Shown here piece after piece: positions 41,589 to 47,613 of a stretch of 64,000 nucleotides of DNA. Every line of letters starts with the position of its first letter. The first letter of the stretch is position 1. Under the pieces are notes generated by a model that made no database searches, was not told the DNA's origin, and worked only from the letters and a program-made list of their open reading frames with translations. Source of the stretch: Gammaproteobacteria bacterium. Lineage in GTDB: Bacteria; Pseudomonadota; Gammaproteobacteria; UBA6429; Thiohalophilaceae. The DNA lies in contig JAHECZ010000007.1 of NCBI GenBank assembly GCA_024641475.1, positions 1-64,000 on the forward strand. The letters are read 5' to 3'. Position numbers and translations under genes: made by a program.

Positions 41589-41969
41589 TTAATGCAGAAT
41601 GCGTGGCATGGACAGCGTAAACGGTGAAATCTGCGCTTCGAATTCATTGCCGTCGTCGGCGATCATTTGATAACTGCCGTGCATGCTGCCAACCGGGGTA
41701 TCAAGCACGGTACCGCTGGTGTAACGAAAACCTTCGCCGGGTTTGAGATGCGGTTGTTCGCCGACCACACCCATGCCGCGTACTTCGTTCACCTTGCCAT
41801 CGGCATCGGTGATAATCCAGTGGCGGGATAACAATTTGGCGGGGACTTCACCTTCGTTGCGGATGGTGATGGTGTAGGAAAAAGCAAAACGGTGATTATC
41901 CGGATCGGATTCCTCGGGGAGGTAGGCCGTTTCGACAGAAACCGTGGCAATGTAGCGATCGTCAGTCAT
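41589..41969 (-). CDS. apaG: ApaG protein (Co/Mg efflux-associated)
   Basis: This 126-residue protein is the beta-sandwich ApaG (DUF525). It has the signatures ETAYLPEESDP, FAFSYTITIRNEG, LLSRHWIITDADG and GSMHGSYQM. It is usually between rsmA and apaH; here it is separated from rsmA by about 2.4 kb of signalling genes. Its biochemical role is not settled. Confidence 0.96.
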   Translation of the reverse strand: MTDDRYIATVSVETAYLPEESDPDNHRFAFSYTITIRNEGEVPAKLLSRHWIITDADGKVNEVRGMGVVGEQPHLKPGEGFRYTSGTVLDTPVGSMHGSYQMIADDGNEFEAQISPFTLSMPRILH

Positions 41970-42046: not shown

Positions 42047-42331
42047 TCAGGCTGAGGCGGTATTATTGCGGCGGCGCTGCATGACGTAATCGACGGCCAT
42101 GCTGACTGCGTTGCGGACTTCCCGGTCCATTCGCTCGCGTTCGTCGGGGGTCATATAAAACATCATGTCGACGTTATACCGGACATAGCGAGCCGGCAGG
42201 TGATTTAACGCGACACAGGAGACGTCTTCCAGAAAATCCTGTTCCGAATCAATAAACTTGGCTGCGACCATTTCATTCAGACGGTACGTGACCAGTTGTT
42301 CGTAGTAGTTATGGATATTTTCAAAGCTCAT
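42047..42331 (-). CDS. ComFB-domain protein, candidate c-di-GMP receptor
   Basis: This 94-residue protein is a small helical ComFB domain: FENIHNYYEQLVTYRLNEMV, then FLEDVSCVALNHLPARYVRY and RNAVSMAVDYVMQRR. ComFB-type domains were recently described as cyclic-dinucleotide-binding proteins in cyanobacteria and other bacteria. It lies next to the CheW-LysM and HExxH genes and near a GGDEF/EAL gene, so a c-di-GMP role is plausible but inferred. Length is normal for a stand-alone member. Confidence 0.85.
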   Translation of the reverse strand: MSFENIHNYYEQLVTYRLNEMVAAKFIDSEQDFLEDVSCVALNHLPARYVRYNVDMMFYMTPDERERMDREVRNAVSMAVDYVMQRRRNNTASA

Positions 42332-42351
42332 GGTGCTGTCCTTTTAACCGG

Positions 42352-42840
42352 TTAGGTGCGTAGTCGCCAGGTGGGCTGGTCATTGGGGTCGATAAGTCCT
42401 TGTTGGCGCAACCAGGCATGCGCATCCTGGGCATCCTGGGCAAACCAGGCCTCAGCTGAGCCGAGGCGGAAGCTGTATCCCCAGCTATTCATATCGGCCA
42501 TTAACCGTTCCGAGTTTAGTGGTGGCAGATGCGCCGCCAACAGGATTTGCAGATAACACACGGCGTTTTCTTCATCGTAATCCCCGCCGGCATTGGTATG
42601 TAAGCCATGACGACGCGACTCATCCATACAGATGTAGTGGCAGGTCTCGTGCAACGCAGAATGGACCGGCGTGTCACCCCGTATATACAGGCGGTTTTCG
42701 ATTAACCCCGCTTCACAGTCCCCCCAAAAACTCCCGGGTATGGTGGTATCGCGACTAACCCAAACGACATCCAGCCCATAACGGCCGAGCAGGGATTGCA
42801 GGGGCGCAGGGCCCAAGTCGGTGCAGAGCATGACAGACAT
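42352..42840 (-). CDS. Small HExxH zinc-metallopeptidase-like protein
   Basis: This 162-residue cytoplasmic protein contains HETCH at residues 64-68 inside a helix preceded by DTPVHSALHE, the HExxH zincin motif, and a candidate third ligand Glu90/Glu91 in DYDEENAVCYL. I do not recognise a named family. It has no signal peptide. It is in the same direction as, and 9 bases after, the CheW-LysM gene, and 20 bases before the ComFB gene, so the three form a compact unit. Its substrate is unknown. Confidence 0.72.
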   Translation of the reverse strand: MSVMLCTDLGPAPLQSLLGRYGLDVVWVSRDTTIPGSFWGDCEAGLIENRLYIRGDTPVHSALHETCHYICMDESRRHGLHTNAGGDYDEENAVCYLQILLAAHLPPLNSERLMADMNSWGYSFRLGSAEAWFAQDAQDAHAWLRQQGLIDPNDQPTWRLRT

Positions 42841-42849
42841 GGTGATGGT

Positions 42850-44268
42850 TTACTTCCGGCGTTTTTTGATGATCCTGACGCGATTGCCCGGATAGATCAA
42901 ATCCGGATCGGCTATATGTGAGAGCCTGGCTAATTCAGGATAACGGTAAGGATCGCTGACGTAGCGTTTGGCGATATGCCAAAGGGTATCGCCTTTGACA
43001 ACAATGTGGATGATTTCAGTTTGATATGCCACAGCAGCTGTCGCCTGGCCGGATTGAGCAGGGGTCGTTGCTGCGCTGGCATCGACAGTCGCTGCCGGTG
43101 TAAACACCAAATCGTCTGTCGGGGCTTCCAGTTCGATGGTAATACCCTCCTGATCACGTGCAATACTGGCTGCATAGTGGACAGGTATTGATTGCGGATT
43201 TGGTATATCAGAGGCAGTCACGGACGGTGGCTTGGCTGTTGTGGCGGAAGTCACTGGCAGACTGGGTGTCGTCACCGTTGCGATCTCTGGCTGTGGCGGC
43301 ATGACTGGCGAAAAGGTGGTAACGATTGCTGGTGTGGGTGCAGGCGTAACCAGCCACCACACCAAGCCTGCTGTTCCGCTTAAAAACAGCATGACCAGCA
43401 TAATACCCGGCCACTGTGAGGGTGATGGCGCACTAGTGGACGCTCGTGGCGAGACAGGCGTGGATTTCGGGGCTGATTTTGGATCGTGAGCCGGTACGCT
43501 TTGCTGTTGTACAGATCCTGGTTTGGGGGTAGACGCTGAGGCGGTGGGGCGTGTTTGCTCATGCCGTGCACTGGGTATCGCCGCCGCCGCGACACTGCCG
43601 CGCTTCACCGGCGCAAACGTTCGCGACGGTTTGTGCGCCACAACCGGTTGCACTGCGGCCGGGACAGGTGTGGAAGAGGGTGTGGCAGCGATTCCGCGGT
43701 CATGCGGGATTGCGCTGGCAGGTGGCGGGAGTGGCGATGCAAATGCAGTACGTGAGTCTGTGGTTGCAACCGGTGCCGATGTCATCGCGGCAGGGGTGGA
43801 TTTTTGCAAGTGTGCAAGGTATGAGCGCAAATAACCACGGTCTTTGAGCGCGGCTAATGCTGAAAAATCAGTTACCAGGTAAATTTGCTTTTGCCACAGC
43901 AAGCTCCGCTGGAACACATCCTTGGGGATCATGGCGGGTATAGGTCCAAACCCGTTGTTGGGCATTGCCATGACTTCAATAATTTCATCCACGACAAACC
44001 CAATTTGACCGGTGGGTTGCTCAGTGATGATAAGTCGTTGTGACTTGCTGGCCACCGTCGCGTCGCTGCCAAACAGATGACGTAAGTCACTGGTTCGTAC
44101 CAGCTTGCCGGCATGTTTGAAAATGCCGGGTGCGGCGGCGTTACTGCCGGGAGGACGGGTAAGCGGCCGCGGTTCGATAATGGCCACCACGGCAGAGGTG
44201 TCGGCGCAACATAAAATCGGTCCTACCCGGAAAAGCAGCAGGGCCTGGTGTGATGGCATCTGGACCAT
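42850..44268 (-). CDS. CheW-like domain, transmembrane helix and LysM domain fusion
   Basis: This 472-residue protein has an unusual order. Residues 1-145 resemble a CheW-like adaptor (ALLLFRVGPILCCADTSAV, GKLVRTSDLRHLFG, RLIITEQPTGQIGFVVDEI, KQIYLVTDFSALAAL). A long Pro/Ala/Ser/Thr-rich linker follows, then a single transmembrane helix at 286-308 (WPGIMLVMLFLSGTAGLVWW), a second low-complexity linker and a C-terminal LysM at about 420-467 (VVKGDTLWHIAKRYVSD, PDLIYPGNRVRI). The topology predicts a cytosolic CheW part and a periplasmic peptidoglycan-binding LysM. It lies 93 bases after rsmA. No CheA or MCP is near. Function unknown. Confidence 0.82.
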   Translation of the reverse strand: MVQMPSHQALLLFRVGPILCCADTSAVVAIIEPRPLTRPPGSNAAAPGIFKHAGKLVRTSDLRHLFGSDATVASKSQRLIITEQPTGQIGFVVDEIIEVMAMPNNGFGPIPAMIPKDVFQRSLLWQKQIYLVTDFSALAALKDRGYLRSYLAHLQKSTPAAMTSAPVATTDSRTAFASPLPPPASAIPHDRGIAATPSSTPVPAAVQPVVAHKPSRTFAPVKRGSVAAAAIPSARHEQTRPTASASTPKPGSVQQQSVPAHDPKSAPKSTPVSPRASTSAPSPSQWPGIMLVMLFLSGTAGLVWWLVTPAPTPAIVTTFSPVMPPQPEIATVTTPSLPVTSATTAKPPSVTASDIPNPQSIPVHYAASIARDQEGITIELEAPTDDLVFTPAATVDASAATTPAQSGQATAAVAYQTEIIHIVVKGDTLWHIAKRYVSDPYRYPELARLSHIADPDLIYPGNRVRIIKKRRK

Positions 44269-44361: not shown

Positions 44362-45144
44362 TTAATTTGCGGTGATGGGCAGGTGTTGGGCCAATTTGGC
44401 AAAGGCAGCGATATCCAGACATTCCGGCCGTAAGCCCGGATCAATACCCAAGGCCGCAATTTGTTCGGCCGTGAACCAGATGCCGACGGCGTTACGTAAT
44501 GTTTTGCGCCGTTGTGAAAAAGCCTGGGTGACCACTTGCTGTAGACGCCGTGGATCGCATTCAACCGGAGGCTGGGCATGTGGGACCAGCCGAATCACTG
44601 CGGATTCAACTTTGGGGGGTGGCCGGAAGGCTCCGGGTCCGATATCAAATAACGGGGTCAGCGCACAATGATATTGCACCATGACACTCAAGCGGCCATA
44701 GGTTTTGTCACCCGGCGGCGCCAGCATGCGATCCACCACTTCCTTTTGCAGCATGAAGTGCATGTCAGCAATGCAGTCGGCCTGGGTAAAGAGGTGAAAC
44801 AGCAACGGGGTGGAAATGTTATAGGGCAGGTTACCGATTATGCGCAAGCGTTGTAACGGTTCGCGACGCAAACTACAGAAATCAAAGCGCAGTGCGTCAG
44901 CATTATGTATGGTGAGTTTAGCGTTTGCCTGTTGTTGCAGGTAGGCGATCAGGTCACGATCAATTTCAACCACATCCAGATGCGGTACATATTCCAGCAA
45001 TGGAAAGGTGATTGCCCCCTGACCGGGACCGATTTCCACCAGCTGCTGGTCAGGTTGTGGATTAATGGCGTGCAGAATGTTCCGAATGACATAAGGGTCA
45101 TGCAGGAAGTGTTGGCCAAAACGTTTGCGTGCACGGTGTGTCAT
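44362..45144 (-). CDS. rsmA: 16S rRNA dimethyladenosine transferase
   Basis: This 260-residue enzyme dimethylates A1518 and A1519 of 16S rRNA. Motifs are KRFGQHFLHDPYVIRNI, VEIGPGQGAITFPLL, the catalytic NLPYNISTPLLF and the C-terminal FSQRRKTLRN. Length is standard. It belongs to the conserved lptD-surA-pdxA-rsmA-apaG-apaH order, but here a GGDEF/EAL and a PhnD-like gene separate it from pdxA. Confidence 0.97.
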   Translation of the reverse strand: MTHRARKRFGQHFLHDPYVIRNILHAINPQPDQQLVEIGPGQGAITFPLLEYVPHLDVVEIDRDLIAYLQQQANAKLTIHNADALRFDFCSLRREPLQRLRIIGNLPYNISTPLLFHLFTQADCIADMHFMLQKEVVDRMLAPPGDKTYGRLSVMVQYHCALTPLFDIGPGAFRPPPKVESAVIRLVPHAQPPVECDPRRLQQVVTQAFSQRRKTLRNAVGIWFTAEQIAALGIDPGLRPECLDIAAFAKLAQHLPITAN

Positions 45145-45228: not shown

Positions 45229-47613
45229 TTATTTCTCGGGAAAAATAAACGTAATGGGACTATCCAGATGTTCTGCGGGTTTACCCAGGTAAAACCCCTG
45301 TCCCATGTGCACACCGAGTTGTCGCAATATGTGGGCAATTTCCGCACTTTCGACAAATTCTGCCACGGTAATCATCCCCAATGCATTGGCCATTTCGGTA
45401 ATGGCGCGCACAAAGGTGCGATCCGCCTGATCATGGACCAGGTGACGCACGAAGCCGCCATCGACCTTGACGATATCCACGGGCAGGTTTTTCAGATAAT
45501 GCAGTGAGGAGAAGCCCATGCCGAAATCATCCAGTGAGAAGCGACAGCCCAGCGCTTTCAATGACGCAATGAATTCGTGAGCATGATTGAGGTTTTCCAC
45601 CGCGGCAGTTTCGGTCACTTCAAATATCAGATAAGCCGGATCGATGGAATGCAGCGTCAATTGTTCACGGATAAAGTCCAGAAAATTGCGATCGCGAAAG
45701 TGGCGTGCCGAGATATTAATGGCCATCGTGATGGCTTTGTTTTGTTGCTGCAGCTGTGCCTGTTGCGCAAGCACACCACGTACTACCCAGCGATCTATTT
45801 CATCAATCAGGCCAAATCGTTCGGCGGTATCGATAAATGCGGAAGGCAGCAGCAACGAACCGTCAGCATCAATCATCCGTAACAACACTTCATAATGCGA
45901 AAGTGTGCCATTATCCAGGAAGTAAATTGGTTGATAATGAAAAACGAACTGATTGTTCGCCAGGGCCTGGCGAATGCGATCTTCCCAACGTATCTTGGCG
46001 TGCATTTTTTCCAGCGCAGCATCCTGGTCGGTATACACATAATAACGATTGCGGCCGCGATCTTTGGCGCGATACATTGCCGTGTCTGCCTTGGCGAGCA
46101 AGTCGCTGGGTGTCATGCCATCGTCCGGGATCATGGCGATACCGATACTGGCGCTGATGTGTGTCGAGAGTTGTTTGTTGACGACGAGATTTTGTTTAGC
46201 CAGCGATTGTAACAAGTGTTCTGCCACAGCGATGGCATCAGTCAGTGTGGCGATTGGCAGGATAATGCCAAATTCATCGCCACCCAGACGTCCAAATACA
46301 TCAGTTTCGCGCAGACAGGTTGCCAGACAACGTGCGACCTCAATCAGTAGCTGATCGCCTGCCTGGTGCCCATAGGAATCATTAACATATTTAAATTGAT
46401 CCAAATCCACAAAAAGTAGTGCACAGGTCTGCTGGTAACGCCGCGCATATTCAATTTGGCGAGATACTTCGGTTTGAAATTTGTGGCGATTGACCAGTCC
46501 AGTGAGTGAATCGTGCTCTGCCAGATACACTACGCGTTGTTCGGATTGTTTGTTCTCAGTGATATCGATCATGATGCCACGAATACTATTGATGCCGGTT
46601 GGGCCGGCTTCAATCATACAGATGTGTCGCATCCAGAGCAGCTTGCCAGTATTATCGATCAGGCGGTGATCAATGCTAAAAGAGTCCTGGTGCTGGTATT
46701 GTTTGGTTAATAAATGTTGCAGCCAGTCACGATCATCCGGGTGAACCATGTGAACCAGAAACTCGATATCTTGCCATTGTGCAATGCGATATCCCAGAAT
46801 GCTTTCAGCGGCAAGATTGATATGGGTAATCCGCCCGCTTTGCGTATCCGCTTCCCATACCACGGCATTAATACCATTGAGCAACGTATTCAGACGATTT
46901 GTTTCGCGCTCTAATGCGGCATGCTCCTGTGACAAGGCTGTGCGATTATTTTCGAGGTGTTGAGCCAATTCATTGAAAGTGTTGGCAAGTTCGGCAACAT
47001 CGTCTTTACCGGGCATATGGATCCGATGGAAAAATTCTTCGCGTCGCAATGCCTGAGCGCCCTGGCCAAGCATGCGCAAGCGGCGTGTCAGCACGATGCC
47101 AACCAGAATAATTAATGTGCTGGATATAACAATGGCCGTTAACGCCAACACGGAATTTTGATAACGGGTTTTGGCGGTGATGCTATTAAGTGCACTAATA
47201 GAAAAACCAGCGCGTAGTGTACCCAAGGTCTGACCGCTGAGGATAATGGTGCGTTTGATATCGAAAACTTGATCTGTCAGCGCATCGGAATACTGCTTAT
47301 CTATCGCTGTACCGGAATCGAAATTACCGATTGTGGCCATCGGTTCGCCGTCATGATTGTAAACGACGGCATAACGCAGATAGTCTGAATCGATCAGCAA
47401 TAATGCATCTTGCAGCGTAGCGCGATCATTGTAAGCAAGCCCGGGTGTCAAGGCATACGCCAGCAAGTCCACTTCATTTTTAATATGCGCCCCAAGAATT
47501 TGGGAATGACTGGAGTTTATCAGGCGTTCACTATTCCAGATAAGCAGCGCTGAGGTGACAAGCTGAACCAGCAGGGCAATAATGATCAAACGACTGGCAA
47601 AGGTGATACGCAT
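45229..47613 (-). CDS. Membrane diguanylate cyclase/phosphodiesterase (HAMP-PAS-GGDEF-EAL)
   Basis: This 794-residue protein has a TM segment at about 7-26, a periplasmic sensor region 30-150, TM2 at 154-175, HAMP to about 225, a PAS domain about 245-350, GGDEF about 360-530 and EAL about 545-785. The GGDEF motif is intact (GRLGGDEFG). EAL residues are mostly kept: EVL in place of EAL, NISARHF, EVTET, DDFGMGFSSL, VKVDG, AEFVE and GQGFYLGKP. Both activities are possible. It is 17 bases downstream of a PhnD-like binding protein, which likely feeds its periplasmic sensor. Confidence 0.93.
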   Translation of the reverse strand: MRITFASRLIIIALLVQLVTSALLIWNSERLINSSHSQILGAHIKNEVDLLAYALTPGLAYNDRATLQDALLLIDSDYLRYAVVYNHDGEPMATIGNFDSGTAIDKQYSDALTDQVFDIKRTIILSGQTLGTLRAGFSISALNSITAKTRYQNSVLALTAIVISSTLIILVGIVLTRRLRMLGQGAQALRREEFFHRIHMPGKDDVAELANTFNELAQHLENNRTALSQEHAALERETNRLNTLLNGINAVVWEADTQSGRITHINLAAESILGYRIAQWQDIEFLVHMVHPDDRDWLQHLLTKQYQHQDSFSIDHRLIDNTGKLLWMRHICMIEAGPTGINSIRGIMIDITENKQSEQRVVYLAEHDSLTGLVNRHKFQTEVSRQIEYARRYQQTCALLFVDLDQFKYVNDSYGHQAGDQLLIEVARCLATCLRETDVFGRLGGDEFGIILPIATLTDAIAVAEHLLQSLAKQNLVVNKQLSTHISASIGIAMIPDDGMTPSDLLAKADTAMYRAKDRGRNRYYVYTDQDAALEKMHAKIRWEDRIRQALANNQFVFHYQPIYFLDNGTLSHYEVLLRMIDADGSLLLPSAFIDTAERFGLIDEIDRWVVRGVLAQQAQLQQQNKAITMAINISARHFRDRNFLDFIREQLTLHSIDPAYLIFEVTETAAVENLNHAHEFIASLKALGCRFSLDDFGMGFSSLHYLKNLPVDIVKVDGGFVRHLVHDQADRTFVRAITEMANALGMITVAEFVESAEIAHILRQLGVHMGQGFYLGKPAEHLDSPITFIFPEK

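Follow-up and report, generated by a model that had tools for sequence, protein, structure and literature searches.

What might a cell do with a protein that joins a chemotaxis-type docking surface to a cell-wall-binding domain, and do the two small genes packed behind it belong to the same system? The question is raised by three neighbouring genes in the 64-kb stretch of gammaproteobacterial DNA analysed here (the window), which encode a protein with a CheW-like domain, a membrane helix and a LysM domain (CheW-TM-LysM), an HExxH protein and a ComFB-family protein. The fixation of chemosensory arrays in the envelope is understood in few species, via indirect chains (ParC/ParP/HubP), and no joint description of CheW, LysM and ComFB, or of a CheW domain with a LysM domain, was found in the open-access papers searched.

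The locus and its fusion protein

An earlier note on this DNA had placed the three genes on the minus strand with gaps of 9 and 20 bases, and the open reading frames agree exactly: 9 bp separate CheW-TM-LysM from the HExxH gene, and 20 bp the HExxH gene from ComFB (Table 1). The trio is flanked by rsmA (44362-45144) and apaG (41589-41969), in a row that runs surA-pdxA, rsmA, apaG-methyltransferase-apaH. In the window, two further genes, one GGDEF/EAL and one PhnD-like, separate pdxA from rsmA. Among the 57 relatives searched, the order surA-pdxA-rsmA-(CheW-TM-LysM)-(HExxH)-(ComFB)-apaG recurs in most genera of an uncultured family, f1, as the earlier note had suggested looking for, and identity to the window proteins is 47-76% for ComFB and 41-58% for the CheW domain. 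A scan of named species genomes with family-specific patterns, which yielded family members only apart from one weak Thermotoga match, gave 33 loci, all from uncultured Gammaproteobacteria; their labels include 'Chromatiales' and 'uncultured Ectothiorhodospiraceae', and one reads Pseudomonadota only. The GGDEF/EAL gene (45229-47613) does lie about 1 kb from the trio, but the functional link once drawn from that proximity did not hold up: neither it nor the PhnD-like gene has a homologue at the locus in relatives, and both were rejected as parts of the system. No CheA or receptor gene is found near the locus, again in line with the earlier reading; the genome encodes three CheA genes elsewhere, and ten CheW domains in total. 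In four genomes (G003, G008, G016 and G026; L076:7276-8592 and equivalents) CheW-TM-LysM is followed by another LysM gene, whose N-terminal part is unrecognised.

Table 1. Features of the locus, with nucleotide positions counted in the window and residues counted in the fusion protein
Feature	Position	Strand	Basis or remark
Putative sigma-28 (FliA)-type promoter, TCAA-N15-GACGCTAA	44301-44327	minus	starts 59 bp upstream of the CheW-TM-LysM start codon
CheW-TM-LysM gene	42850-44268	minus	ORF, 472 aa; CheW and LysM by Pfam
CheW-like domain	aa 10-139, 43852-44241	minus	Pfam PF01584, E 1.9e-18
Single membrane helix	aa 289-307, 43348-43404	minus	hydrophobicity; charge and Cys distribution
Short conserved periplasmic motif, Y-x-A-x-I...GITI-x-L-x-x-P	43099-43182, approximate	minus	between helix and LysM
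LysM domain	aa 421-466, 42871-43008	minus	Pfam, E 1.3e-9
HExxH protein gene	42352-42840	minus	ORF, 162 aa; looks co-transcribed
ComFB-family gene	42047-42331	minus	ORF, 94 aa; likely cyclic dinucleotide receptor

The fusion protein consists of the CheW-like domain, a linker of about 145 residues rich in Pro, Ser, Thr and Ala, one membrane helix, a periplasmic linker and a C-terminal LysM. Both terminal domains are matched by sequence, bearing out the claim that a wall-binding domain and a chemotaxis-type docking surface share one chain: the CheW domain scores 66.9 bits against a cut-off of 23.5 and its profile matches solved CheW structures (2qdl, E 6e-12), and the LysM scores 38.3 bits against a cut-off of 20.9 and is very strongly conserved among orthologues. 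The linkers on either side of the helix are long, of low complexity and poorly conserved. The helix, claimed at residues 286-308, is slightly shorter in our prediction, and a weaker hydrophobic stretch (residues 10-28) falls within the CheW domain. Since the CheW-like fold is cytosolic and the helix single, the LysM, which comes after that helix, is most simply periplasmic. The cysteine distribution in orthologues fits this location, with none in 5033 residues after the helix versus 64 in 7985 before it; the positive-inside charge bias is weak, too weak to decide the topology as sole evidence. None of the findings named earlier as grounds for giving up the wall-linked reading (an unconserved gene order, an N-terminus without the CheW fold, a cytoplasmic LysM) was made.

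Flagella, classical CheA and a putative FliA-type promoter

Classical CheA is present in all 28 f1 genomes that carry CheW-TM-LysM and in none of the six that lack it (G002, G005, G009, G010, G019 and G024), and FlgH in 27 of the 28 versus none of the six (p 5e-6, this and the other association p values taking genomes as independent and ignoring shared ancestry). The 28 include two genomes, G033 and G035, in which the LysM half only is seen, at a contig edge; the sole member without FlgH is G021, an assembly in 550 contigs. G023, G025 and G031, all three incomplete, were left out, and with these scored as absent p is still below 1e-4. All six genomes without CheW-TM-LysM retain a long ChpA-type CheA, some as fragments. 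On a tree of the locus proteins, which covers all of the six save G010, the absences are spread over four separate lineages: G002 with G019; G009, whose sister is G012; G005, whose sister is G017; and G024, within genus g13. The absence of CheW-TM-LysM is seen directly in G005 and G009, and that of flagellar genes is less certain there because these assemblies are about 70% complete. Across 369 genomes of the class, those with verified CheW-TM-LysM comprise 14 that are flagellated and one, G213 (72% complete), that lacks FlgH (p 0.001). Multi-CheW proteins in G152, G267 and G234, in which LysM is absent, were set aside as other proteins.

The upstream region adds a regulatory side to this pattern. 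Promoters were scored against TMAA-N15-GCCGATAA, which we take to be the E. coli FliA form, with A or C permitted at the second -35 position; an earlier scoring with the strict consensus form had the same outcome. The site in the window scores 10/12, and its position and form are conserved in orthologues, which carry TAAA, TCAA or TTCA-N15-GCCGCTAA, GACGATAA or TCCGATAT in roughly the same place, with a CG-x-TA core invariant at fixed spacing in 20/20 aligned upstream sequences. Because a score of 10 is found 22 times on the two strands of the window, position and conservation, rather than the single match, carry the weight. Scores of at least 10/12 occur in 13 of 24 CheW-TM-LysM upstream regions versus 0 of 156 for seven control genes of the neighbourhood, namely surA, pdxA, rsmA, HExxH, apaG, methyltransferase and apaH (p 1e-13, in a test not fully independent because the first scan and the formal test share sequences; the gene controls and the copies from other families are independent of that scan). 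Some CheW-TM-LysM copies score just 8-9/12. Among copies in other families, the site lies near -80 in G162, G326, G222 and G160 and at -152 in G335. In the genome of the window, the flgM promoter (TAAA-N15-GCCGCTAA) and the cheY-Z-A promoter (TAAA-N15-TCCGATAG) are of matching form. Judged by this consensus match, CheW-TM-LysM would be a member of the FliA (sigma-28) regulon; it appears to belong with the flagellum, switched on and lost with it. With this apparent tie to the flagellum, and with a docking domain at one end and a wall-binding domain at the other, it is a candidate for anchoring sensory arrays to the wall.

The ComFB-family protein

The smallest gene of the trio encodes a clear ComFB domain (PF10719, E 8.6e-19, 67.8 bits against a cut-off of 25). 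Like known ComFB/CdgR cyclic dinucleotide receptors, it has a predicted fold (pLDDT 83) whose top five matches are ComFB/CdgR chains, the only sensible PDB matches being 8hja, syn_CdgR with c-di-GMP, and 4wai, B. subtilis ComFB (E 0.02-0.04, prob 0.99-1.00); unlike theirs, its association here is with flagellar genes and not with competence or cell-size control. Cyanobacterial ComFB proteins bind both c-di-AMP and c-di-GMP (PMC12313861). A c-di-AMP cyclase was found neither in the window's own genome nor in 56 of 57 relatives, which makes c-di-GMP the likelier ligand; c-di-AMP was rejected on the cyclase's being missing from 57 of the 58 genomes searched. The protein is thus probably a c-di-GMP reader, and the candidate role that the earlier note had given it is plausible.

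Its partnership with CheW-TM-LysM is likely, not strict. The two are missing together in three of the lineages described above, ComFB is retained in G024, and it is lost alone in G011 and G213, where CheW-TM-LysM is still present. In other families they are mostly unlinked, and among flagellated genomes outside f1 their association is not significant (p 0.14); in G130 and G253 ComFB stands alone between rsmA and apaG. The association of ComFB with flagella is broader: of the 369 class genomes, 49 with FlgH and 7 without it encode ComFB (odds ratio 7.8, p 1e-8). Upstream regions of ComFB score at least 10/12 in 4 of 25 cases (p 3e-4), all four sites lying at 56-77 bp. Stand-alone ComFB genes of other gammaproteobacterial families (L189, L190, L185, L196 and L183) carry sigma-28-like sites about 50 bp upstream, which suggests that ComFB is itself often a late flagellar gene. 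These data suggest that in Gammaproteobacteria ComFB often belongs with flagella, not DNA uptake, and if so the reading of the common 'late competence' annotation would change; the titles and abstracts of the three open-access papers found with both ComFB and flagellar terms draw no such link.

Array tethering and its alternatives

The Glu38-Arg62 salt bridge, a mark of signalling CheW (F7-type adaptor), is absent from CheW-TM-LysM, both residues being replaced, by small residues in the window's protein and by small or other residues across the 23/23 locus copies, with the domain judged by sequence only. The CheW, CheV, PilI and CheA-P5 domains of the same genome retain both residues, and its ParP-like protein has neither. 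The pair is required for signalling, not for assembly (Ortega et al., PMC3828127). The position of E. coli V36, by which alone the receptor groove was judged, is V or I in 32/32 main-group copies. In Vibrio, the CheW-like AIF domain of ParP enters arrays and positions them (PMC5706961), and the residue pattern of CheW-TM-LysM likewise fits a structural, non-signalling array member.

From the architecture, its conservation, the shared absence with flagella, the promoter match and this residue pattern, all of them computed here, we infer that CheW-TM-LysM is, on balance, the product of a late flagellar gene of the FliA/sigma-28 regulon and tethers chemosensory arrays to the wall. The CheW-like domain would take a structural, non-signalling place within receptor-CheA arrays, like the AIF domain of ParP; the flexible linker and single helix would span the inner membrane, the LysM would bind peptidoglycan in vivo, and arrays would thereby be held at a suitable wall, at the pole or septum. 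ComFB, probably on the same transcript, would bind c-di-GMP and modulate the tether or another flagellar step. If this is true, array-docking and wall-binding domains in one protein constitute a very direct tether, and one that occurs in several gammaproteobacterial families and so is testable in cultured relatives.

Such a protein would resemble several known ones in part. Like the ParP-like protein of this genome, it has a CheW-like domain without the Glu38-Arg62 pair, joined to a localisation part and linked to flagellar chemotaxis; unlike ParP, which is soluble and placed via ParC, it uses a membrane helix and LysM, and it has neither the ParC-binding N-terminus nor the che-cluster place between ParC and CheW. 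With FimV/HubP it shares a single membrane helix, a periplasmic LysM-like domain, a long low-complexity linker and a likely motility link, but its domain order is reversed (the LysM is C-terminal), a CheW-like domain stands in place of the acidic/TPR region, and the FimV core region (TIGR03505) finds no match in it. FimV is a separate gene in the window's genome and in most relatives, and the idea that CheW-TM-LysM is a FimV/HubP substitute was rejected on that ground. It shares with CheW the fold family and the V36 groove position, and differs in its predicted attachment to membrane and wall and in the missing salt bridge. The same genome holds, separately from CheW-TM-LysM, a ParP-like gene beside ParC-like and CheW genes; with these and FimV already present, a second positioning protein could be redundant. 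In a second che cluster, a chemoreceptor with a globin domain and PAS repeats (L158:5327-8317) adjoins a ParA-like gene. A second type of CheW-TM-LysM (L111, L112, L113, L114 and L117) lies by a glutathione-reductase-like and/or a gamma-carbonic-anhydrase-like gene, in some genomes with a MinD/FlhG-like ATPase nearby, and keeps Arg62 in the four copies read.

A more specific form of the tether, which we put forward tentatively, is that CheW-TM-LysM locks arrays to peptidoglycan and that ComFB, produced together with it under FliA control, binds or releases it according to c-di-GMP; array placement would then be coupled to the motile/sessile switch. It is also possible, if rather unlikely, that this flagellum-regulon protein docks elsewhere: its CheW-like domain might bind, for instance, a motor regulator or the flagellar basal body, with the LysM anchoring that complex to the wall. 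The shared absence and the promoter point to flagella generally, not to arrays specifically, the canonical Glu38-Arg62 pair is absent, and the CheW-like domain may bind another target because substitutions of Glu38 reduce receptor binding in E. coli (PMC3828127). However, the lineages without CheW-TM-LysM also lack classical CheA, and V or I at the V36 position throughout the main group speaks for the array.

The earlier note had thought of a 'wall-sensing or localisation system', and it is the second half of this phrase that fits the evidence. A sensor in which LysM binding of wall fragments, or strain, is passed inward and changes CheA activity is suggested by the outside LysM and inside CheW-like domain being connected by one helix; we consider it improbable, since long, low-complexity and poorly conserved linkers are poor signal transmitters and the two residues coupling the receptor site to the kinase site are absent. 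Less probable again is a role in the Pil-Chp (type IV pilus) chemosensory system. A full Pil-Chp set is encoded in the genome, and in other bacteria type IV pili depend on support from FimV, itself a LysM protein, but genomes that have a ChpA-type CheA and no flagella also have no CheW-TM-LysM, and the putative promoter is FliA-type.

It is highly doubtful that the three genes form one system in which an HExxH protease has the wall or the CheW protein as its target, as the 9 and 20 bp gaps and conserved order might suggest, because HExxH is kept without the other two genes (rsmA-HExxH-apaG in G002, G005, G009 and G019), is lost while they stay, and in six other families lies away from the surA-apaG locus. 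No HExxH match was found in five genomes with CheW-TM-LysM (G011, G012, G018, G022 and G028), all but G011 of which also have ComFB, so the trio that the earlier note took as a unit does not stand as one: HExxH is an older neighbour, outside the proposed tether and its modulator. The HExxH family is present in 34 of the 58 genomes searched, from several families, and H64, E65, H68, E90 and E91 are invariant in 28 sequences, giving the motif and downstream acidic ligand of metallopeptidase-like proteins; no Pfam or NCBIfam family matches it, and its predicted fold (pLDDT 94) has no significant PDB match. The complete genome G160, from another family, has CheW-TM-LysM and ComFB between rsmA and apaG with no HExxH gene. 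Its CheW and LysM halves (L200:6032-7466) are open in different reading frames, with a GC-rich linker of prolines between them, and the halves in G213 (L251) show the same arrangement.
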